From Cenococcum geophilum 1.58 (lineage: Eukaryota > Ascomycota > Dothideomycetes > Gloniales > Gloniaceae), in NCBI GenBank assembly GCA_001692895.1, contig KV748221.1, positions 1,219,056 to 1,283,055 on the forward strand: a DNA stretch of 64,000 nt, in the 5' to 3' direction. The position numbers and the translations under genes were made by a program. Positions 1 through 26,805 of this stretch are shown piece by piece. Position 1 is the first letter of the stretch, and every line of letters begins with the position of its first letter. The notes under the pieces were generated by a model that was given only the letters and a program-made list of their open reading frames with translations, did not search any database and was not told where the DNA came from.

Positions 1-3000
1 TTAAGTTATTACCTAGCTCTTTCCTTCTTATAGAATAGCTTTATATAGTGCCTCTCGGGTGCCTTCAGGATGCCCTATTATTAGGAATTAATTTTATACT
101 TTAGGGATGCCTTTATTCTAAGCTTTAGTAACAATCTATATAAACGCAGTGTACTACTATAATCCCCATATATAATAAACGGGTAGTGTTCTTATAGGTG
201 CCTTATAATTCCTTAAAATTTCTAATTCTTTATAGGCTGTCCTTTTACTCCTCTTCGTACCATTAACTCTACTATATATCTCCGGTACTAGGCCAGATAC
301 TCTCCTTTTATCCCTAGGGGATCTTACTAAATCCCTAAGGCTACTTCTTATGGTGCTACTACTCCTTCTCATATAGCGTCTTCTTTAAATAGTATCCCTA
401 GTGGTTCTCCTATAGATCCCTATAGGCTTCCTCTTATAGGATTTTAGGATCCCTATTATAATAGCGAAACATTTCCGTTCTTAATGCCTGTACTTAATTC
501 TATAGTTTTAATTTATAGAGTCTTCCCTATTGTTTTACCTATAGTATATCCGGAACCATTTCTAAGTCTTTACCTTTGGTTTTTAGGAAGGTTTTAATTG
601 CGGTGTTGCATCCTAGCTAAAGGTACTCCTTAGGTTCCTAACTATTATACGCCTAGGAGTATCCTTCCTAATAAACTAAAAATTCGCGCTTCTTCTGGCG
701 CCATTTTTGGTCTAGAATGTCTTTTATATTCTATTCTAGTTCCCTATTAATTTTGCTAGGTAAGGGCGGTTCCGTACTATCTCTTCTCCGGTATAGCTCT
801 AGTAAGAAAACATAAAATATGGAATATATTAGATAAGATTTCGGTAATTCTAATTTATAGGCTTAGTTTCCTTTGGTTTTCTTAACTATCTTAAAGGGTC
901 TAAGCCACCGGTAATCCAGCTTCTTCTTAATGCGTTTTATTTGGATATTTTTTATAGATAGTAAGACTTTATCTCCTATCTCAAATTCTTTTAGCATATA
1001 TTTTTTATTATAGTACCTTTTTTGCATAGCCTAGGCGTCTAGCAAGTGCTTTTTAAGTTTCTCTCTACAAATTCTTATTTGCTTAATTCTTTCGGACGCC
1101 ACTAGTGCCTCTCTTTTGGGAATGATGTCCTTAACGTTTTAGGGGTTATTTACTTTTACCCCAAATAATGCTTTATAAGGGGTCATTTTTATACTACTAT
1201 GGATACTTATGTTATATACGTGCTGCACTAAAGCCAACTATAATGTCCAATCATCCTGTTAATAATTAATATAGCAGCGGAGGTAGTGTTCCAATAACGC
1301 ATTTAGACGCTCTATTTACCCGTCTATTTATAGGTAGAAGATAGTACTTATCCTTTACTATATTTTTAATAAGAGACAGAATAAAGACCAAAATGCACTA
1401 TTAAATACGGTGCCTCTGTTAGATATAATTCCCCTTAGCATACTAAATAAGAGCCACTATTCTAAAAACAGGTCTGCTAGTTCTGCTACTATAATCGTTA
1501 TTATAACAGCAAAGTATCCTAAAAACTTTATATACTTATCAATGATTACTAGGATAGTGTTAGCAACCTCTCCAGTTCTTATCTTAGTAGGGGGTAAGCC
1601 TATAATAAAATCTATTATTAATTCTAATATGGGTCCCTACGGAATAGGAAGCACTAATAACTCACCATATAGGCGATACCTAGATATCTATATCCTTTGG
1701 CACGTATTATACCTTAATATATAGTCCTTAACCTCTTTAGACATTCCGTCCTAAAAGTATTTCCTTTAAACAGCCTTAAGGGTTCTGTTAGCACCGTAGT
1801 AACCCCTAAGAGGGTTATTATGGAAGACCTTTAGAATTTTATCTTAAATTGCTTGGTCCTTTAGAATATATACAGCACCCTTAAAGCGTAATAAACCCTT
1901 TTAGTCTTGCTGCTATAGCTTCTTAGTAACTTTAGCTAAGTTAGTCTCTACTATATCTTTCTACCTCTCCCTAGAGGCGAAGGCGTCCCTTTATTAAGCT
2001 TAAAGAAGAAGATCTAGAAAGGTTTTATATAGATCGCTTACTTCTATTTCGCCTGCCGCTATTATAGACTTAAGGCGTAGCACGAGACGTTTTAAACCAT
2101 TAGTGCTAGCAGATTCTCCTACCGTTATATAGTATACTATGCTATAAATAGGTATCTCGCCTATCCCCCTTAAATCTAAGAACTCGCAGCTAATACGCCG
2201 TTGAGTTAAAGGTGCCGTAATACCTCCAGCACATTCTGCAGAATTTTTACTAATTCTAGGGTACGCTAACTTTGTAATGTCTACTTGGTCTATAACCTAG
2301 TCTATAACCATATCCTACGGCTCTATAATTATATTGCTTCGTAGCTGCATCACCAGGACCTCTGCCCTACCGCGAAATTCTATAGTTCTAGGAAAAGAGT
2401 CTTCTTTTTTCCTAAGCAAATTTTATAATATAGGGATTATTTCCCCTATGCTGTCCTAGATCCTCCCTATCTTATAATCCGGATGTCTTAATAACCCATT
2501 AGCAGAATTTATCTTTCCTAGGCGGTATATAATCTTAAAATCGTACTGCAATAGTGCCTCTACCCACCTAGCTTATCGACCGCTTAACACCTTCGTAGTT
2601 ATAAAGTATTTTAGGTTATTATAGTCTATAAGGACTTTAATAGGATAATTACTTTCTATATAATAATGTCGCCAGTGCTTTATTACTGCAATTATTGCGA
2701 GCAGCTCCTAGTTGTGCGTTATATAACGCTGCTTTATAGGGGTTATTTTCCTTAACTAAAACGCCACAGGATGCCATTTTCCGTCTTTTAATTAAGATAT
2801 AATTGCCCCTAGGGTAAAGCCAGATATATCCGTTTTAAGGTATATACGTAGCTCCTAGTAGAAGTATATTAGGATAGGCGCCAATATAAATAAATCCTTT
2901 AACCGGTCTATAGCCTACTTAGTAGCTTCCCTAAATATAAAGGGTCCTAACTTCCTGCCATTCTTAGATCCTTTTAGTAGATTGGTAATTAGAAGTATTA

Positions 3001-3601
3001 CTTATAAGTAGTAAACAATAAACGTTTAGTAGAAGTTCGCCATGCCTAAGAAAACCTATACTTCTCTAAATGTCATAGGGTAGGGCCATTCCCTAATAGC
3101 GTCCACCCGACTTTTCTCTATTAACACTTTATTAACGCTAATAATAAAGCCTAAAAAATTAATGCTAGTAGTATAGAATATACACTTTTTTAGGTTTATA
3201 TAGAGCTTATATTCCTATAGTCTTTCTAGTACTATTCGCACGTGGTGCGTATATGCTTTATAGTTATTAGAGTAGACTATAATATTATTAAGGTAGACTA
3301 TATATATCGTGTCTAATAGGCCCAACAATGCCTTATTAATATAGGCCTGAAATATTGCTAGTGCGTTAGTGAGCCCAAATAGCATCACTAGGTACTTAAA
3401 GTGGCCGTACTATATTTAGAACGCCGTTTTCCACTTATCGCCGGCTTTAATCCGGATTTAATAGTATATATCTTTTAGATTTAATTTCGTAAATATCTTT
3501 ACGCCTAATAGCCTGTTAATAAGCTCCCCTATTAAGGGTAATAGGTAGCGATTCTTTATAGTAATCTTATTTAGCGCCTAATAGTTAATATAGAGGCGAA
3601 G
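1..3601 (-). mobile_element. Outer Ty3/gypsy chromovirus, 3' part of pol, RIP-degraded
   Basis: Relic of a retrotransposon polyprotein read on the minus strand, so reverse transcriptase lies at high coordinates and the C-terminus at low coordinates. The reverse transcriptase core is at about 2.9-3.6 kb; its YxDD box near 3265-3290 now reads YLNNI (both Asp changed to Asn, as G-to-A RIP would give). RNase H, then integrase and a linker follow towards about 0.8 kb. A chromodomain-like stretch at about 610-720 includes the residues FLVY then EGYS. Stops are frequent (TAG in place of Trp or Gln codons). The element continues at 9495, because a second retroelement is inserted at 3602. Its 3' LTR is not visible and lies beyond the window start. 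Confidence 0.85.
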
Positions 3602-3823
3602 TGTTAGCGACTCAGTCAATCGAGGCACGAGCACGGCAAGAGGGGCGCGCAAGCCTATACGATTGGTAGTCTATAAACGAGGATCTAAAGCTAGAGAAAG
3701 GAAAGGAGAAGAAGAGTAGCGCTGGTTAAAGTAGGGTTCTTTTTATGCGGTCTTCTAGTTACATAACCGCGAAGTTCTGCCAAGTTCTGCCAAGTTCTGC
3801 CAGGTTCTACCAGTGCCGTAACA
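3602..3823 (-). repeat. 3' LTR of nested chromovirus
   Basis: This 222-bp long terminal repeat has TGTTAGCG and CCGTAACA ends and matches 9273-9494 without indels. It contains a tandem decamer AAGTTCTGCC (about four units, about 3770-3812). It is preceded by the target duplication CGAAG at 3597-3601. Confidence 0.95.
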
Positions 3824-3944
3824 TTACCCCCCCCTCCGCAAAAGCCTGCCCTTAGGCTTTATAGTCTGTATTATACTTATAGGGCGTTCTTATCTTTATA
3901 TTCTTCCGGTAGCTTATTGTCTTCGCTATACTAGCACTCCATCC

Positions 3945-4150
3945 ACTCGTCTAGGTACTTTAGGGGTCCTGGTTTATTAGGGTAGCGGTTATAGAATTCT
4001 TAAAGCTTATAGGGACTGCTAATAAAGTTCCATATAGGGTACTAGGTAGGATCTGGGTCATAGCCTTTCCAACTAACGCAGTACTTTAGCGTTTTCCTTA
4101 CTAGTTTACAGGCCAGTACTTCTTCAATTTCCCATTTATTGTCGCTATTA
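3945..4150 (-). pseudogene. Chromodomain relic at the C-terminus of the nested element's integrase
   Basis: The minus-strand reading gives WEIEEVLACK, then KYCVSWKGYDPDPT, a stop where Trp is expected, then YPIWNF and YLDEWMEC. This is the expected chromodomain pattern (V-EEIL...Y-V-WKGY...TW-P--N). In chromoviruses this module is thought to direct integration to heterochromatin marked by H3K9 methylation, which would fit the nesting in an AT-rich block. It is broken by stops. Confidence 0.8.
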
Positions 4151-6288
4151 ACTTGAATCGGTAGGGGAGGTTCGTTCTTTTATCTAGGCAATAGGTCGTT
4201 CGCAGCTTTCCGTAGCTTATCCAGCAAGAAAACGGGGTGAACCTTGATCAAATCCGGGAGCTTTACTTTATATAAGTTACCTATCTTCTTAAGGACCTTA
4301 TACGGTCCCGCCATCTAATAGTCTAGCTTACGGCTAGGCCGTTCCGTCTTCTAGTTCTTTGTTATAACCTAGACTATATCGCCTACAGTAAAGTCGGGTT
4401 CGCGCCTATACTTATTTGCCTACTATTCCATTAATTTCTAGGCCTTTTCTAGATTTATACGGGCTACCGTCTAGGCTTCCTCTAAGCGCTTAGCGTACTG
4501 CTAGGCTTCCTTATAAAACAGTTTCTTGCGTACAGTCCGTGGTCCTTCTAGTCTATCCCAATCAAAGCTTATTTGGGGTAAATACCCTATTTCTAGTTGG
4601 ATAGGTACAAATCCTGTAGAGTTATAGGGTAGGGTCGCCTAGGCGTAGTCTATTAGGGGTAGCAGTTCGCCCCAGTTGTCCTAGAAGTAGTTAACAAAAG
4701 GCCGGAGTTTCTAATCTAAATATTGATTTACAATCTCCGTCTAGCCGTCTATCTAGGGGTAGTATACTATAGAGAGCTTTAGCCTAATACCTAGGATCTA
4801 GGTAAACTCGTTCTAAAAGGCCGATATAAATTGCGGGCCGCGATCGGATATAATAGTATCTAGTAGTCCGTAAATGCGGTAGATATAATAGATATACAGT
4901 TAGGCCGCCTCCTTGGCATCAATATTCTTATAATAGGGAATTAAGAATAGGCGCTTACCAAAGCGGTTAACTAGAATTATAACTATATTATATCCGTCGC
5001 GGTCTGTTAGTAGCTTATAGAAGTCTATAGAGATATGCTACTAGGGGCGGTTGGGTATTGGGAGAGGTTTTAATAGTCCTAGGGTCTTATCTCGTGGAAT
5101 TATAGATCTACAGCAGCTATCGCAGTTCTATATATAACGGTTAATATCTATAATCATTCTGGGCCAGTAGTAGCGGTCACCAATAATCTTATAAGTCTTA
5201 TTTTTTCCAGGGTGGGCCGTAAAGACCTAGGCATAAGCTTTGGCAATAAGCCAGGTCCGTAAGTTCTGTTCCTTAGCTACTACTAGCCGTTCCTAGTGCT
5301 TAAGTAGTCCGTTTTCAAGGGACCATGGGCTAGCAACATTCTTTGCCTTTTCACAATATTCCTATAGAGAGGGGGTCATTCGGTTGGCCTATAGTAGTTC
5401 ATTAATAAGGTCAAGTTCGGAGGAGTTAATAGGACATATCTCGGCGCCTAAGGAGTCTATGCTTAGTTCTGCCTATATCTAGGGGTCAAGGTGTTCTAGT
5501 TATAGTAGCGTCTAGGTCTGTAGTGAGATCTTCATAGCCGTCTAGTCATTTAGGTCTTGCTTACGCCTTATAAGAGTATCCGCACGGTTTATAGCGCTTA
5601 GTCTATATATAATTAAGAAGTTAAACTAAGATAGGGTATCCGCCTAGCGTGCCTACCGGGCCATAAGGGCCTTAGTTATTATAAAGTATTCTAGGGCCTT
5701 ATAATCTAAAACTACCTTAATCGGCTTAGGGGTCCCCTCTAGCTATACACGCTAGTGCTAAAAGCTAGAGATAATAGCCAGCATTTCTTTATCATGGATG
5801 TAGTAATTTAGCTTAGCATCTATTATAGTCTTCAAATAGTATACAATAGGGTACCACTCTCCGTCTAGTTACTTCTAGGAAAAAACACCAGCTATCGCGC
5901 CGTCTAAGGCATCAGTTTCTAGTATTAAGGGCCGTTTTAGGTTAAAATAGGCAAGTAGGGGAGCCGATACCAGCCGTTTCTTAAGCTTATTAAAGGCCTG
6001 CCTATATATAGCGTTAAAGTAAAAGGGCTAGTCTTTTCTAGTAAGACGGTTAAGAGGCTAGGCGATCCTACTATAGTTCTTAATAAAGCGTCGGTAGAAG
6101 TTACAAAACCCTAAAAAGGATTATACCCCCTTTATGGTCCGTAGGGGTGTCTACTAGTTAATTACAGCCGTTTTCTCTAGGTTAGTTTTAATTCCGTCTG
6201 TACTAATAATAAAACCTAGGTACTTTATACACTTAACACTAAACTCCGACTTCTTAATATTAACCTAGAGGCTAGCCTCACAGAGCCG

Positions 6289-6516
6289 TTATAGGACTTT
6301 ATAGACGTGCTCCTTATATTCTAGCTCGTTCTTAGAGTAGATTATAATATTATCCAAATAGGCTATACAGAAATCGTCAAGGTAGTTAAAGAGTACATCA
6401 TTTATATACCGCTGGTACGTAGCTAGTCCATTAGTCAGTCTAAAAGGGAGCACTTTATATTTATACGTTCCGTAACAGGTCCAAAATATAGTAAGATCTT
6501 TAGACCTAGGGTCCAT
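6289..6516 (-). pseudogene. Reverse transcriptase fragment of the nested element
   Basis: A 75-codon stretch open between stops carries the central part of a Ty3/gypsy reverse transcriptase: FRLTNGLATYQ (normally FGLTNAPATFQ) and YLDNIIIYS, where the second catalytic Asp is Asn (GAC to AAC, a RIP-type change). It is the longest uninterrupted coding remnant in the element. It has no start codon of its own meaning and is not a gene. Confidence 0.88.
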
Positions 6517-11150: not shown

Positions 11151-12100
11151 TTTCTAACNTTATAGNATAGTATAGNGTTACCCCTTNNAGTCCGCTTNNT
11201 ATCTAGGGTNTNTATACTTCCCCTAATTGTCCTTATAATTGTTCTTAGTAGTCTTAATATACTTATCTCAATCATATCTCTAACTCCTTTATTTTTTATA
11301 GGGTCTTATATAGCAACCGCTCTAATAACTCCCCAGCGGTAATCGTTTCTAAAGGTCTCGCAAGGTTAGACGGACCAGCCGTGGCTTCTTTATAGGAAGA
11401 GGGAATGCGCTCCTCTGGGGAAACTCTTTAAGCCTCTTATAGTAAGGGCGTTGCTTTATAAGATATAGGAGTATAGTTTATTATTATTAATTAATAGCCG
11501 TACGTTCCTAATAGATTATAAGCGATTAGAATTATAAGAGGCTAGCTTAACCAGAACGTATAATTATCTAATTAATAGTATTACCGGTAAGTAGAAGGTA
11601 AGTTAAAGGTAAATAAAAGGTAAGTTAAAGGTAGAATAAGTTTTACGTATTAAAGGACAAATGCTTCTAACCACTTCTATTTAGAGACTAATCGCTAGTT
11701 CTTCTCTAGAGGAGAACCAGCTCCCTATATAATCTTTCTAANACGCNAGTAAAACCCTTTNCCCCTTATNTNTCTNACNGTGTCTTCTNGGACGTAGATG
11801 GAACATAGGTGAGACCTCCTTCTGGAATATAAATGAGACCTCCTTCTGGAACATAGATAAGACCTCCTTCTATCTCATCTGATATGTACCTTCTAGGGAA
11901 TTCCGTTACAGTAAATTGTATTCTATAGCTGTTAGGGATATATCTCTAAGCTAATAGCATTAAGCGCCGCGTGCTTTCTGTACTCTATAGGCTTAGATTA
12001 ATTAATAGTTATACTACTCTAAATTGGCAGAAGGAGCGGGTAGCCTAGGAGTTAAGGTTTAGCCTATAATCTCCGCGGTACGGGCGTACACTAACCTATA
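11151..12100. other. AT-rich spacer with N runs and short tandem repeats
   Basis: No coding signal was recognised. The stretch has scattered N bases (about 11159-11212 and 11743-11790), a degenerate GGTAAGTTAAA-type tandem at about 11587-11640, and a three-copy 24-bp tandem at 11799-11870. It probably includes the unrecognised 5' end of the outer retroelement and assembly-uncertain sequence. Confidence 0.6.
11799..11870. repeat. 24-bp tandem repeat, three copies
   Basis: Three adjacent units begin TGGAA and end GAGACCTCCTTC or a close variant (11799-11822, 11823-11846, 11847-11870). The differences are transitions. The array lies just after a cluster of N bases, so the true copy number may be larger. 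Confidence 0.85.
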
Positions 12101-13950
12101 TATAGGTAAAAATCCATTTAATAGGTGCCGCTTCTAATACAATTATTATCTATAATAACTTCGACTACCTCTAATAAGTTTAGTATTAAACACTTAGGGA
12201 TACTAGGACGTTTTATTCGCGTATAACTAATAAGCTTATTTTTGGCGTATATATACCTAATAGTGGGCTTTAATAAAGTATGCTTTATATAGATATCCTA
12301 ATTAAGTTCTTAAATATTACAAAGGCTCTAGGTAATCTACAAAATGAGATATAAAAGCAGATCTTAACAGCTTTAATCTATAAAGCTATTATAAAAGCGT
12401 ACCCAGGCCTTAATATATTACTTAGCAAAAACCTACGGTTTAAACATCTATATATACCTACTATTAATATAATACCCGCTACGCGGACGTCTAGGCTTAA
12501 CCTAGAACCTATTATAACTAAAGAGGCTTTTATATCTAAAACCTATAGGGTACTAGACGATATCTTTCTCTATTAAATAAATCTATAACACACTAATAAA
12601 GTATTTAAGGAGTGACTGTTTCTAATCTATAGTAATTAAAAGACCGTAAAGCTTATTTAGTTGTGTTAGGGAGAACGTATTAAGTCAATATCCGCCTATA
12701 ATAGCCTATGTTAGGCTCTACCTATTCTAGCTCTTTGGCACCTAAAGCTAAACTACCTATATATAGTTATACGGTATCACTATAGTGGCGAGCAATTAGC
12801 CTAAAAGTACTCTATGCTATATACCTATATAAACCACCTAGGCTAAAGGAATATCCTAGCTAAGCGCGCGCTATTTTATTATATAGAGGAGCTAATTCTC
12901 TATAGCTTTAACGCTCGTATTATAGCGTTGCTCTATACTTAAATTAAGGACTCCTGTAATACTAAGTCGCCTATAAATATTAAGCGGTACCTTAAGAGTT
13001 TATCTCCGCAACGTTTATTAATAGTAGTTAAGGATATCCGCACAGCTATTTTCGGTTAAGAAGTCTCTTAAATAGCTAACTATACTAGCTAGCCTGCGGA
13101 ACCGCGGCAAAAGGGTTACCCTAAATAAACTAGCAGTGCTATATTCTTATAAATACTTCCTAAGCCTACTAATATAGAGTTTCTAACGCATGTCCGCTTC
13201 TTATAACTAGTAGAGATATATAAAGTCCTTAAGCACGCTATTAAGCTTGCGGATATCGGCCTGCTTAGCCGTATACTCCCCCGCATCTATATCTATTTCG
13301 TAGGTAGTTGGAATAAGAACTATCTACTAGAGATATTACGTTTTTTCTAGTTAACTTTAACAGATACCTATTCCCCTAAGCTCTAGTAAGCTATCCTAGT
13401 AAATAGTCTAGTAAATAACCGCGGCAAATAGAATAGTTACTACCTAATAGATCTTGATAATAAGTTACTTAATAGGGAGCTAAAGTAGCTTATACACGCT
13501 TATAGCAATTTAACGTTTAACCTAGACTCGCTCTTCCGCTAGAGTATTTATATAACTAATTATATAGGGCCACTACGTATAAAGTTTAAGATTATGTTTA
13601 GTAAACGGATGTCTACTTAATATACTATTAAATCTGCTACGGTGGATATTTAATCGCTTACTAATACAATTGCTATAGGCTCTATTATTCGCCATTAGGC
13701 ATAGCAAGTAAAGATAAAAGCGCCGCCTCTATTATAACTAGGTATTAAACGGCTTAATTAATCTACCCTTAACGAGTTTAATTTACGGCTAGGTAGTGAT
13801 CTTTCCGCCATATTTAATAAGCTTAATCTCTATAACGATAATAATAAGTTAAATGGCTTTATACTGCCTACCAACTTTGCTTAAACCTAGCTTTAACCTA
13901 TATATAAGCTGCTTAATAAGTAATATAAGATATTAGCTATAAGCTACTAC
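12100..13950 (+). pseudogene. DUF6589-like gene relic, RIP-degraded
   Basis: The plus-strand reading, broken by many TAG/TAA codons and probably some frame changes, shows the run of motifs I associate with the fungal DUF6589 family. They are LPILALWHLKLNYLY then RYHYSG (about 12720-12790), INHLG, EELILYSFNARI (about 12885-12920), HAIKLADIGLLSRILPRIY followed by FVGSWNKNYLLE (about 13235-13330), and LVNSLVNNRGK then YYLIDLDNKLLN (about 13400-13480). The function of this family is not known to me. In fungi it is patchily distributed and often in many copies, consistent with being a RIP target here. It converges on the RecQ-like relic at 14300-16700. The family name is from memory and needs a profile search. 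Confidence 0.6.
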
Positions 13951-14145
13951 TATAACCATTTAATATCTGCTATAGTTAGTAGCACTAGTACATATTCCTA
14001 AGTAATTAATATTATTAATTAATTAATCTATTTAGTTTCTGGGCCGCGCTTACTAGGGGTATAAGGTAGGAGGGGAAAAAAGGGTTGTCCTAATAGATAT
14101 TAGCTACTGTGGTTATAATATCCGCTTGGTGGATATAAGGTAAAC

Positions 14146-14240
14146 TTACCTAGTATTAGCTAACCCCGCCTAATATTAGCTAACCTCGCCTAATATTAGC
14201 TAACCTCGCCTAATATTAGCTAACCTCGCCTAATATTAGC
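14146..14240. repeat. 20-bp minisatellite between DUF6589-like and RecQ-like relics
   Basis: Four full units of TAACCTCGCCTAATATTAGC (14161-14240; the first has CCCC for CCTC) follow one partial unit. The unit repeats without spacers, so it is not a CRISPR array. It lies at the convergent 3' ends of the two relics. Confidence 0.92.
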
Positions 14241-14299
14241 CCGCTATATACTAATTGGCGTTGCCGTTAATTTCCTATAGTGCTCTTTATATACGTTTA

Positions 14300-16700
14300 C
14301 CTCTATTTAATCGCGCTAACCGCCTCTATAGTACTAATAAAGACGTATCTAACTGGTAGGTTGCTGGCGGTAGAGATATATCTAACGGCTGGTATAAGGG
14401 TAATAATAAAGTAGGAGCTGGAGACCTAAAAGTTAGCGAAGGTATAGGTATATCCTCTTTCTAAGTTATTAGCAAGAGGTCTATAGCTGACTGTTAACTA
14501 GCCTATAATATATTAGCGCTACGGCGAGGTGCTAATTACTACGGCGCTAATATTTTAAATCTCCTATCTAAAACCTGCGAAGCCTGTATAAGAGCTTGTG
14601 ATAAGCGCTTATCCGCAGTAGCGTGCTGCTCTAATACTTAGGAAAACCGCTCTGATATCTATATAATTAACCCAGAAGGACCTAAGAGTTGCCCTATTTT
14701 TTCCTATTTCTACTTTTATTCCTTATCTGCTAAAAGCTTAATAAGGGACGGAAGCTCCTTACTAAGGATATTAGGATCCCACTTAGGCATTACTTACCTT
14801 AATAATGCCGTATCTGGAACCTACCCTATGTTATAGAGGCGATAGAGCTACTTATCTAGTATAACGCAATTAACTATAGGCGTTTATAGTATATCCTAAT
14901 ACCTAGCCTCCGCCTATTATATAAACTACTTTTGTATATTGCTTAATATAGGCTCCCGGCGGGTTTTCGCGATATCCGTATTATGGCTAGTGTGGATATT
15001 ATACTCGCAATTTGTGAATATTATTAGGTTATAGTTACTATAACATAAGTCTTTACTAATAGTAGACTGTGGGTCTCTATAGTATATAAGTTATATCTTT
15101 TATAAGCATACCTAATCCTTATTAACTAGCCGCTATAGGGTGAACAGCAGTTTACTACGCAACTATACATTAGTTAACCGCTTCTTTAGGTATAGGGTTG
15201 GTATAATAAGCTCTTTAGGTAGGCGTACTATAGAACCACTAGGGCTTAACCTACGCTCGCTTCTTATATCTACTAACTGCTTAATACTAACTGACGCTAT
15301 AGATAAAGCATTACCTATAATATCCGCAGTCTCTGCGTTTTGTCGCCCGCGGATATTATTATACAGCGCGCTTACGCGAAGATCGCCTATACACTAAGGT
15401 TGTATATGCTTAGAACCACCTAATTTATTATAAGGACCCCGCTAGCGGCTCTTAACTATAAAGATTGCTTCGCCTAAAAGGCCTTCTTCTTAGCCTACCT
15501 GGCTAAACCGCAGTGTTAGTATATTATAGGATTTATAGCGAGGTATTTTATATTGGATTAAACGGTAGATATCTAGGATATCTATACTATATGCTACTGC
15601 ATCTAATATAACGAAAATTTAAATTCGAGACGTTGGGCGCGCGTATTCGGCGTATAAGTAGTCTTTATTAATATCCGCAAGCGTTATATAGTAGCTCTAA
15701 ACCGCTTCTCTAGCAATAGTAGTATTATAGCCGTAATAGATTAACCAGCTGCGAATAGTATCACAATAGGCAGCTATCCACTCCTTAAAATTAAAGAAGA
15801 TGATTATCTTTAGAATTAGCTGAAGTTGATTAAACTATTAGCGGTGTGCGGATATTAAGCGGCTTCTTAATTACTCGCCCTTTTCTTAGTTACTATTACT
15901 AGCAATATACAAATATACTAGAGTAGCAGCAATAGTAAAGTAAAGAGCTTAAAAGTCCTTCTTTTTTGGCGCGGTTATAACCCTCCGTATAATCTTTAGC
16001 TCTGGCCAATTAATTAGGGTTTTAATAACTTATATATTAGGTTTAAACCTAGCTAGCTTATATACAATCTAAAACGTAGAGGGGTCTAGCGTTGCGGTAT
16101 ATATAAACTAAGGCTTATTAACTAAGACCGAACGTACTTTAAAGAGTTATACGTACGCTATACGGAAGGTCTCTCCCTAATTAGCAAGTAGGTATACTTT
16201 ATTAACCACTATAAGGGCAATATAAGAACGAAATATTAGGTCTATTAGAACCTTATATAGCTTATTACTAACTAAAAGCTCTAGGGAGATAAGGATATAT
16301 GTGTAGCTGCCCGTACAGATATCCTTAATCAGCTTAGCGGATATTGTCTTCCCCTATATATAAACAGGTCAAATATAAGGTAGCTTTATAATCTTTTTTA
16401 CTTACTCTAACCTAATCGCGTTAAGTGGAAGAATAATAATAATAACTGCATTAGGTATGAGACATAGTAGTACTTACATTATTATACTCTTACTAAAAGA
16501 CGTCTTTGCCATAAGTATAAGATCTTACCGCTTAAATATTAGCACCCTTAGGGCCTTAAGCTGCTCCATATAACCGCGGTATAGATATATCTCCGTAATA
16601 GCTTTATTTAGCTTGCTTATTTAAAGCTAATAAAAGCTGTTTATAAGCTGGGGTAGCTCCCTTTATAGGCTATATAGCCATAGAGACCGCTAGGGATCCA
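14300..16700 (-). pseudogene. RecQ-like ATP-dependent DNA helicase relic, RIP-degraded
   Basis: The minus-strand reading follows superfamily 2 RecQ motifs in order. EQLKALRVLIFK comes before a degraded Walker A reading AKTSFSKSII, where T-G-x-GKS is expected (about 16.5 kb). LPLNAI (motif Ia) follows. ILISLELL precedes a DEAH box now reading NKVY (Asp to Asn, Glu to Lys, His to Tyr, all G:C to A:T changes). TATLDPSTF (motif III) is next (about 16.08 kb). Then come FFNFKEWIAAYCDTIRSWL, SIDILDIYRLIQYKIPR (motif V region) and LRFSQVG in the place of QRxGRxGR (about 15.8-15.5 kb). Every catalytic box is destroyed. RecQ genes of this kind are repeated near telomeres and in mobile cargo of several fungi; that link is an inference here. 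Confidence 0.8.
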
Positions 16701-17199
16701 TTTTAATGTAATCCCTAGCCTATTATATACTGCCAGCTTATTAATCTGCTTAACTAGCTTGTGGTTTATAACCTCTTTGCCTTATTTGCTTTAATAGAGG
16801 CATTAGTAGATAGTATTTAAAAGCAGTAAAGGGAGAGTAGAGGGTTAAATAAAGTTAGGGAGGACTTAAATACGTTATAATAGATAGATCTTAATAGGTT
16901 TTAATTATTAGATTATAGATATAATAGATAGAAAGTAGGTAGTTAAGATTAACGCGTCGTTAGTGCAAATATTACTAATTATTTACTTTAGCAAACCGCG
17001 TCACGGCTATTTTAAAATTAATATTAGGAACGGGAAGGCGGGGAGACTTCTTACGTAAACCATTCAATTCGCCGGAGCTTAGTATATAATTAATGAATTT
17101 TTCAAGCTGCCTAAACTTGTCGTAAGAATAAGAAGTGAATATCCGTAATATTTGCTATGCGGATATCGCGACGTGCGTTACAAACGTCGGCTAAAGTGT
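16700..17199. other. Edge of the left AT-rich block
   Basis: No gene was recognised. Base composition rises to normal GC between about 17.0 and 17.2 kb. An inverted pair AATATCCG / CGGATATC flanks the edge at about 17131-17166. Confidence 0.6.
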
Positions 17200-17279
17200 C
17201 TCAGACCTTACAGGGACAGATGGCCTAAACTGGTTTAGTGCCATCGGGCCGGATTTATCCGGCCTCCCTGTGGTCTGAG
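17200..17279. other. 80-nt perfect three-way-junction foldback
   Basis: The sequence pairs into three arms. The outer stem is 17200-17207 plus 17210-17215 with 17266-17279 (8 bp, a TT bulge, then 6 bp: CTCAGACC/GGTCTGAG and ACAGGG/CCCTGT). Hairpin 1 is 17219-17230 with 17233-17245 (12 bp, one bulged T, TG loop). Hairpin 2 is 17247-17254 with 17257-17264 (GGCCGGAT/ATCCGGCC, TT loop). All 34 pairs are Watson-Crick. It could be a structured RNA, a foldback/MITE-type transposon remnant or a boundary element; the sequence alone does not decide, and neither strand is favoured. Confidence 0.8.
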
Positions 17280-18534
17280 CATGCTGAGACAAGGAACGGT
17301 AAGGAATGCTGCAGCGAACGCTGACTGGACCGCCATTTTGCAAACTCTCAAGGCTGTCGCATGCACCTATAAAATATCTCTATGACGTGGTGGAGAAGCT
17401 ATTGGCGTGCTAGGGCTGCCCCTGTCGGTATGAGATATTGGGAAGTTAGTTGCATGAAGATAAAAAGGATTAGGTAAGTCTTTGAACTGATTCCTAGGTG
17501 CGAATGCCCGAGTATCTGGTCGTGCTTCGCTTTGCAGTCTAGACATTTCAGGCAGCCGTTGTAGGATGGATTCTAACCCTCGAGGGTGCAGATATATTCT
17601 GCAATATGATCAAAAATGCATCTTTCTTGAAGAGTTAAAAGAGGTGTGTGTGTGAGTGACGGAAACAAAAGTGGAAATCCGCTATTTTCTTACATCTGCC
17701 TCAGCTGGACCAGTTCGTTCTCGAGGCATTACCGAGCCTTTAAAGTCGTATTCAGTATTCGAAACGCGTCACAAGCCTGTATATATATGTAATTGAATCT
17801 ATAAGACTGAAATGCACGATAAATTGCAAATGTAATAAAGGTTGAAACGGCGGGCCGAAATTTGCATGCACGCTGGTTCTTTACAGAACAATGGAATGAT
17901 AGCTGATGATTGAACGTACCAAAGAGGCTCTGATTTGAAGAATATGGCGCTATATTAATCTTCGGCGAGTGCATCATGTATCGGGCGTCGAGGCTGTGAC
18001 ACGGGTCGACGAGTTTGTTTTGGAATCAACCCTGTCCCCGCCAACACCCAAAACGACACCCCACCTGAACCTTTTTACCTGCTCATAGCCTGTTCAACCG
18101 TCGCCCTCTACGGACCGGCTGTTCGCGCTCTCTCTCTGAACTTCTCGAAGGTAAAAGCTTTTGGCCACTCACCTCTGTAGGCAACAGGAGGCCGATCAAC
18201 GAAAACTTGGACCTATCGTGGCTCAGCAGTAGCCCTTGTTGACATCACGCGAATACCCACGGTTACCTACAGACTATTTATTTGATACCGCTTTTCACAA
18301 ACAGACCGACCCTACTGACGCAAGTCACACCGTTGCTACAAACGGCCATCTACCCTTCTCCCTTCTGCTTGGTACAACCAGCAAAGCCAAGGGCCAACGG
18401 ACTTGCGGCGCAAGCCAGGCGCGGCACTCTCAACGACATTCGTCCCCCCGGAAGGCCCGCCTACCGGCCGCTATTGTCGTCAAAGGATCTGCCGAGCGGA
18501 GTTTTCGCCGGACAGCTCCTAGCTAGCTATCATC
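17280..18534 (+). promoter_or_regulatory. Upstream region and probable 5' leader of protein kinase C
   Basis: About 1.25 kb lies between the AT-block edge and the kinase start codon. Short pyrimidine-rich tracts (TCTCTCTCT near 18130) resemble fungal core promoter or leader sequences. Two short overlapping upstream frames begin at 18236 and 18282, the second running past the kinase ATG to 18557. If the leader is transcribed from upstream of 18236 they could act as upstream ORFs. No other gene was recognised. Confidence 0.4.
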
Positions 18535-22569
<4,035 letters not shown>

Positions 22570-25457: not shown

Positions 25458-26805
25458 AGTCTATTGTAGAGTGTAGGATAGCACAATAGTTTTATGCTGA
25501 TCGGTCAAAGCTGTAGTGCCCCACGGAGCCTTAGAGGGGACCGTGGGGAGTTGTCGAGGCTTCACGGACCATGCTCGGCCCTTGCAATTTTCTGCTCCGG
25601 TCCTCGGTCAAACTTTTTCTATTTCATTTTTTTCGGGCCTGGCTTCTCGCTTCTGCAATTAGCGCCTTGGCGCCTCCTACAAATACCCGTCGCACTCGCC
25701 CTTCTCTCTTTTTTTTCTTCAGTCGACTTTGTGAGTTCTACCCGTACCTCAATACTTTCCCCTGTCTACATTTGCTGACTGCTGCTCCCATAGACTTCAT
25801 AGAATCACTTCTATAGTAAACGTCCTCTTCTGAGTCTCCTACAAGAGCCACAGAATCTCCAACCTGGCTGATGAGCTTTATCCTCGATGTCCCAGAGTGA
25901 TACCTTATACTCTTGCTTCGGCGAGAGTGGTGATGATCTCTACCCAGCTCAGATCCTGACTTCGGTCGGTCTGACTGGGAGGACGTTGGGTGAAACCTGA
26001 CAGGCTGTTGGTAATAAACAATTGTTTGTGTGAGCATCTGGTAGGACTGGAGGGAGGATTGGATGGCCGGCTTGTCTATGACTGTAGCTATAATATTTGA
26101 TAATTTGCCTGATGCTTTTCATGCTCGCTGGTGCTGTGATTGACGATAGAATGTTATGTGAGTGATATTGTGTTTAACAACTTTGCCCACTCTTCATAGT
26201 TACCCGCCATACTGATAAAGTGTACCCTTCCAACGCGATATTGTGCTTCAAAGATGACATGATTTTTGCGCGCTGATTCTTGTGTTGGTCTTATTTAATA
26301 GTGCGGATGAGTCTTGGCGCAGCATGCTTGTATTCCCGCAGTTCTCTTTGGCAGGCTTCAGATCTATATCGGTAGCTAAGGTCCAAGCCAATTCAAAGAC
26401 ACCAGCTAGCCCAGTGCGCAGCTATCGAGGTTTTGATGCCATTTCCCTTCAAAACTACGTTACCTATGCTTTGGAGGGGACATTTTCCTGACCTGCTTCT
26501 ATGTTGACAACGCCTGCAATCCGTCTGTCTCACAGATGTAGCAATCTACCTCTATTTCCATCCTACGTGTTTTCCACGAGCATTATGTCTTACTCAACGG
26601 CACTTCGCAACTGTTTCTGTCGCCTACCAGTGTCTTACCCAACAGCCCATCAGTAGACAGACGTCGCTCCAATCCACAAGCCCAAGACAGCTACAGAACG
26701 ACAACGTGAAGTCCTGACAAACTCGCAATCCCAAAACAAAGCTACCAAACAACCATATAAAGCCTTGAAAAGTCCTTACGCTTCGGGTGGACATTAATTA
26801 GTTCG
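25458..26805. other. Intergenic region, nothing recognised
   Basis: Short open frames on both strands show no family resemblance. The longest (25738-26037 minus, 99 codons) has a plausible amino-acid mix but no recognisable motif, so I do not call it. Confidence 0.5.

Follow-up and report, generated by a model that had tools for sequence, protein, structure and literature searches.

The window, a 64,000-nucleotide stretch of the genome of Cenococcum geophilum 1.58 (contig KV748221.1), contains an AT-rich, RIP-mutated block that carries the remnants of two genes on opposite strands, one for a DUF6589 protein and the other for a RecQ-like helicase (Table 1). At the border of this block, where the first-pass annotation had rightly placed it, an 80-base sequence folds into a three-way junction, which is very probably the right terminus of a two-gene DNA transposon of the cut-and-paste type. 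The copy in the window is without its left ~1.1 kb, and its truncated side adjoins part of another repeat, of which at least 39 other copies exist at 89-93% identity (39 scored among 581 candidates). Further to the right, ORFs recognised by eye as protein kinase C-like occupy 18523-22494 (+), starting about 1.2 kb from the transposon end, and a fungal U3 snoRNA gene (Fungi_U3, E 6.3e-32) lies at 25790-26005 (+).

Table 1. Features of the transposon copy and its immediate surroundings, in window coordinates.
Feature	Position	Strand	Basis or remark
Part of another high-copy repeat, adjoining the truncated left side	11300..11900	.	39 other scored copies
Left-truncated, RIP-mutated transposon copy (element ~1089-6443)	11913..17292	+	~80-94% identity to other copies
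Remnant of DUF6589 gene (putative transposase)	11905..13920	+	31 stops in last 515 codons
Remnant of RecQ-like helicase gene	14254..16890	-	56 stops in 879 codons
Inner repeat	17190..17208	-	18/19 positions identical between ends of unmutated element
Three-way junction of right terminus	17198..17290	+	DNA and RNA folding
CTCAGACC, inner arm of basal stem	17200..17207	+	8-mer count in element
Basal and distal stem, 8+7 bp with TT bulge	17200-17216 with 17265-17279	+	DNA fold
Arm 1, 11-bp hairpin with bulged T	17219..17245	+	DNA fold
Arm 2, 7-bp GC-rich hairpin	17247..17264	+	DNA fold
Outer terminal inverted repeat, read inward	17271..17292	-	22 bp, 21/22 positions identical between ends
Expected place of 9-bp target duplication	17293..17301	.	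Analogy with other copies; left partner lost

The three-way junction had been described from the letters as an 80-nt structure at 17200-17279, and folding as DNA and as RNA recovers it there. The arm lengths first given (14, 12 and 8 bp) are correct to within about 1 bp, the exact counts varying between the two types of fold: in the RNA fold the register is slightly shifted and the second hairpin has 8 bp. Such nested pairing had been judged very unlikely to arise by chance. None of 200 shuffles reached the native stability in any of the fold tests, whether the 93 nt of 17198-17290 were folded as DNA (-30.1 kcal/mol, z -8.63) or as RNA (z -6.85), or 111 nt were folded as RNA (z -5.78 on the + strand and -6.10 on the - strand). 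The lowest energy among 2000 further shuffles was -19.8 kcal/mol, against the native -30.1. Branched folds appeared in 882 of these 2000, so that only the stability of the fold is exceptional, and not its branching. The alternative 7-bp pairing of GTCTCAG with CTGAGAC (17198-17204 with 17284-17290) also exists, because CTCAG occurs twice in the terminal repeat.

Shuffles thus do not fold as well, and the host genome has other copies: on these two points the first-pass annotation had staked the fold. The 177-Mb assembly contains at least 40 copies including that of the window (131-base query; 102 candidates, 40 scored), and the 39 others were fetched for a comparison of their ends. BLAST homology to the window stops at 17292-17300 in all 39. 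By eye, the copies end after ...GCATGCTGAGACAA (...GACAA) at 17292 and are followed by unrelated DNA, two of them ending in ATAA. From this sharp common end and the unrelated flanks, the fold is identified as part of a repeat, at its right terminus, and the AT/GC edge as the place where the repeat stops. A left end beginning TTGACTCAGCATGCTCAGACC... was also found, and the full element measures 6443 bp, a length obtained from two copies that are identical over a 4184-base overlap except at two N positions. Among the three readings offered initially, that of a foldback transposon came nearest: the fold does belong to a transposon end, but the element is a 6.44-kb two-gene DNA transposon, the opposite end of which folds likewise. 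The RIP indices of the window copy (0.483 and 1.656; those of the unmutated element are 1.251 and 0.963), together with its stop codons, indicate heavy RIP. Towards the right end, RIP-type mutation becomes rarer: deeper in the element it affects ~63% of CpA/TpG sites, but across the final 200 bp (17092-17292 and the same stretch of other copies) the share drops to 34%, then 13% and lastly 8%. This gradient was taken from 15 copies, the window's and 14 found by similarity to the right end, a selection that biases the figure down; one of the 14, L021, is unmutated.

Each terminus has a short inverted repeat and, after it, a T-shaped palindrome built on an 8-bp basal stem, CTCAGACC/GGTCTGAG. Counted on both strands, the 8-mer CTCAGACC occurs four times in the 6443-bp element, and these are the four basal stem arms only. 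In the genome, a 17-bp core of the outer repeat is matched exactly at 89 places, and the same pattern read backwards at none. Between the outer and inner repeats lie 76 bases at one end and 63 at the other, which share only short matches; each of these dissimilar inserts nevertheless forms a distal stem plus two arms, the letters of the distal stem differing between left and right. As DNA, the left end folds with a z of -9.04 and the right end of an unmutated copy with a z of -7.74. The minimum-energy fold is branched in all 37 aligned right ends (37 of the 40 in hand, with L013, L015 and L016 left out) and in 12 of 14 left ends, the exceptions being L028 and L050.

Insertion generates a duplication of 9 bp, observed in 23 of the 24 insertions with both flanks: 20 are exact and three have one mismatch. 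This count combines two sets (18 of 19 pairs, then 5 of 5); it retains the one pair without a duplication, C26, and excludes L012 and L043, whose left ends are degraded. The duplicated bases have no fixed sequence. Thirteen of the pairs are 1.1-1.6 kb long. In five of these, compared with the full element, the left side retains 313-449 bp and the right side 316-979 bp, and these retained ends place a bound on the sequences needed in cis.

The insertion sites have a further property, namely a fixed distance to the word TCACGTGA. Of 74 flanks, 28 have a site that starts at +23 to +26 and matches the word at six or more of its eight positions. In 2000 mononucleotide shuffles the mean number of such flanks was 1.1 and the maximum 6, and non-overlapping four-position blocks outside this interval hold 0 to 4; the 74 flanks are not all independent, since those of L019 and L066 are alike. 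The 28 sites have the consensus RTCACGTGAY, and we take TCACGTGA to resemble the site of the yeast bHLH protein Cbf1. When only duplication-verified insertions are considered, 21 of 23 have a TCACGTGA-like site at +23 to +26 (16 of 18 and 5 of 5 in the two sets), on the left in 12 cases, on the right in eight and on both sides in one, and 17 of the 21 sites match at 7 or 8 of 8 positions. The +23 to +26 rule had been set on the earlier flank data; four later insertions are wholly out of sample, and all four have the site, while a fifth, C5, is only partly new, its site lying in a left flank that the 74 had included. In the two misses, a perfect site lies at +34 (L041) and a 7/8 site at +45 (the C14 pair, L062/L040), which is roughly one and two helical turns beyond the usual interval, although two cases prove nothing. 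The copy in the window has no TCACGTGA site on its surviving side.

Several observations can be added on individual sites. The site of L055, at +31, falls outside the one-or-two-turn pattern. In the left flank of L066 (C3:4159191-4159290), the right end of another copy is seen by eye just past the same CACGTG, and the two copies appear to face this site from both sides, each at about 23-26 bp. The unmutated 6443-bp element contains no CACGTG, which might limit self-insertion, or might be due to chance.

Unmutated copies of the element encode a 939-aa DUF6589 ORF at element positions 280-3099, which matches PF20231 with an E of 1e-68 (232.4 bits, for a gathering cut-off of 27). DUF6589 is listed in Pfam as a domain of unknown function. 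The helicase is encoded by a separate gene on the opposite strand: its DEAD and Helicase_C domains score above the Pfam cut-offs, its best PDB match is RecQ (E 8.7e-20), and it matches a RecQ family model with an E of 5.4e-30, under the curated cut-off of that model. Stop-free DUF6589 ORFs were found in seven of 49 scored protein matches (533 candidates), two with the full 939 codons and five partial. All seven run off a contig end, as is expected if the assembly breaks in identical young copies; the five seen at their right ends have differing flanks and are therefore separate insertions. The DUF6589 protein is likely the transposase. Blocks YDNFD, GDQ and NY..EM, common to the DUF6589 proteins of this and a second family described below, fit a DDE enzyme by eye only. 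Searches with this protein gave two matches in PDB sequences (best E only 0.11), one in PHROGs (E 0.36) and none in NCBIfam. Patterns for DUF6589 relatives matched 3 stretches in viral contigs and 27 in prokaryote genomes, among which tblastn found no relative, and PF20231 had 0 matches in 14 control genomes.

PF20231 is found at 102 or more scored places of the host genome (274 candidates), and one of them led to a second family of elements. Its DUF6589 protein, on contig C75, has 52% identity with the first across 604 aligned positions and 39% across a further 230. Upstream of the gene, an inverted-repeat search identified the arms CTCAGACCATAGAATCAA and TTGATTCTATGGTCTGAG, 56 bases apart. 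They belong to a left end that starts TTACCTCAGCAAGCTCAGACC and has the same basal stem with a new distal stem and new arms (z -9.75). This second-family element is inserted in the left end of a family-1 copy (family 1 being that of the window). The place of its right end could be expected from the interrupted sequence, and the right end was found there, at L082:406. This end, ...GCTTGCTGAGGTAA, is associated with a perfect 9-bp duplication, CAAGAAACA, both read by eye; the element is 10,887 bp long. The right end also has a branched DNA fold (z -6.39), with a centroid fold less sharply branched than at the three other ends, and its basal stem, CTCAGACG/CGTCTGAG, contains a C:G to G:C swap. 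With similar folds at both ends of both families, the four ends share one architecture built with different letters. The single insertion known for the second family has no TCACGTGA site, and L081, a stretch with 6.6 kb of this 10.9-kb element, gave no match to the helicase. A direct duplication of 1.65 kb, 76% identical, occupies L081:5005-8501; ORFs on its opposite strand have a cysteine pattern weakly resembling fungal Zn-clusters, below cut-off.

The shape of these termini might be a by-product. The transposase would then bind inverted copies of the word CTCAGACC in duplex DNA, and the additional pairing would be incidental or inherited, and never extruded. Consistent with this, it is in the basal word and the outer repeat that the sequence is conserved. 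The compensatory base changes for which a search had been suggested do not amount to significant covariation within family 1, where one pair has changed on both sides, a number reached by 481 of 500 shuffles. Moreover, the distal stem is mismatched in the nonautonomous left ends, and one whole arm is gone from L028, although its 9-bp duplication is perfect: this loss could be due to slippage after insertion, or be the sign of a dispensable arm. Given the null covariation, the mismatched stems and the L028 arm loss, we consider a by-product quite possible, while leaning against it. What speaks against it is that the distal stems and arms of the four ends differ in their letters and yet all pair, with z-scores of -6.39 to -9.75, more than inverted binding words would account for by themselves.

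The other readings concern what the fold belongs to. A chromatin boundary element halting the spread of RIP or heterochromatin, as first suggested, would account for the fall in RIP-type mutation to 8% in the last 60 bp, but this fall sets in ~200 bp before the terminus and coincides with where the repeated sequence stops; as the AT/GC edge is that of a RIP-mutated repeat present elsewhere in the genome in at least 39 copies, we find a boundary highly improbable. A structured RNA, also suggested initially, would in this setting be a gene lying at the repeat edge by chance. The RNA fold is strong on both strands; the fold is nevertheless part of the repeat unit, beside its terminus, with a second and different T at the other end, and the only window match listed by Rfam at gathering score is Fungi_U3, none being at the fold. 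An RNA gene therefore seems extremely improbable. Lastly, a hairpin near the end of an element that encodes a helicase recalls the 3' hairpin of Helitrons. Helitrons lack terminal inverted repeats and target duplications (PMC4522978). The 22-bp terminal inverted repeats and 9-bp duplications observed here contradict these defining features, the Pfam scans listed no Rep or Helitron domain, and we rejected a Helitron identity, to which we assign a negligible probability.

For a cut-and-paste transposon with T-shaped termini, the following mechanism can be proposed. The transposase would recognise the terminal repeat and the basal stem, the T being probably extruded, or held as inverted half-sites, during recognition. 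It would then cut both ends and insert them with a 9-bp stagger, into a target 23-26 bp from RTCACGTGAY to which it may be guided by the site or by a protein bound there. The RecQ-like SF2 helicase would act as an accessory protein. Transposases of the cut-and-paste type are usually assumed to recognise double-stranded ends by their letters. More speculatively, and with low confidence, we suggest that ends in the DUF6589 clade may be partly recognised by shape, as extruded three-way junctions in which pairing is kept while letters drift, and that this may be combined with an offset of about 2 1/4 turns from RTCACGTGAY, set by a bHLH (Cbf1-like) tether. If the T fold is kept across families with different letters, it provides a eukaryotic DNA transposon in which recognition of the ends by shape can be put to the test, and the helicase carried by such elements might have these T-shaped ends as its substrate. 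Insertion at a set distance from a single 8-bp word amounts to precise target choice, for which a tethering factor is directly testable. DUF6589 itself gains an element anatomy.

Our literature search, in which AcademH was seen through citing papers, found no description of T-shaped ends or of a TCACGTGA offset in such elements. Both the T-shaped termini with dissimilar arms, present at the two ends and again in a second family, and the fixed offset from a TCACGTGA-like site appear to be new. The inverted terminal repeats of adeno-associated virus look alike, with a T-shaped palindrome at each terminus. They are origins for a single-stranded genome and work with an HUH nuclease; here, in contrast, insertions have 9-bp duplications and no HUH nuclease domain appears in Pfam scans.

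Among DNA transposons, Kolobok elements insert at TTAA, and no TTAA duplication is found here, where the duplications are 9 bp long and of varied sequence. KolobokH is, like the present element, a fungal DNA transposon with a RecQ helicase; that of KolobokH is located downstream of the transposase domain (PMC9587614), whereas here the helicase has its own gene, encoded on the other strand. Strand alone does not separate the two, since a red-algal Kolobok has RecQ on the complementary strand (PMC9587614). As regards target choice, Tf1 of fission yeast works alike: its integration is linked to the binding site of a host protein, Sap1 (PMC5371812, PMC7175516). Tf1 is an unrelated LTR retrotransposon with an integrase, and for the DUF6589 element the binding protein is only putative.

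The closest known system is AcademH, of which the element is not a proven member. AcademH elements have duplications of 9 or 10 bp, linked to their helicase (PMC10045372), and are present in Basidiomycota, Ascomycota and Mucoromycota (PMC10799480). The likeness lies in a helicase beside the transposase, the 9-10 bp duplication and the fungal host (PMC10045372, PMC10799480). The features compared for membership were the helicase, the duplication and a DDD/E transposase of the Academ superfamily, a role for which the DUF6589 protein is only a candidate. Two of these three are found in the DUF6589 element: a helicase gene beside that of the putative transposase, and target duplications of 9 bp in 23 of 24 pairs.
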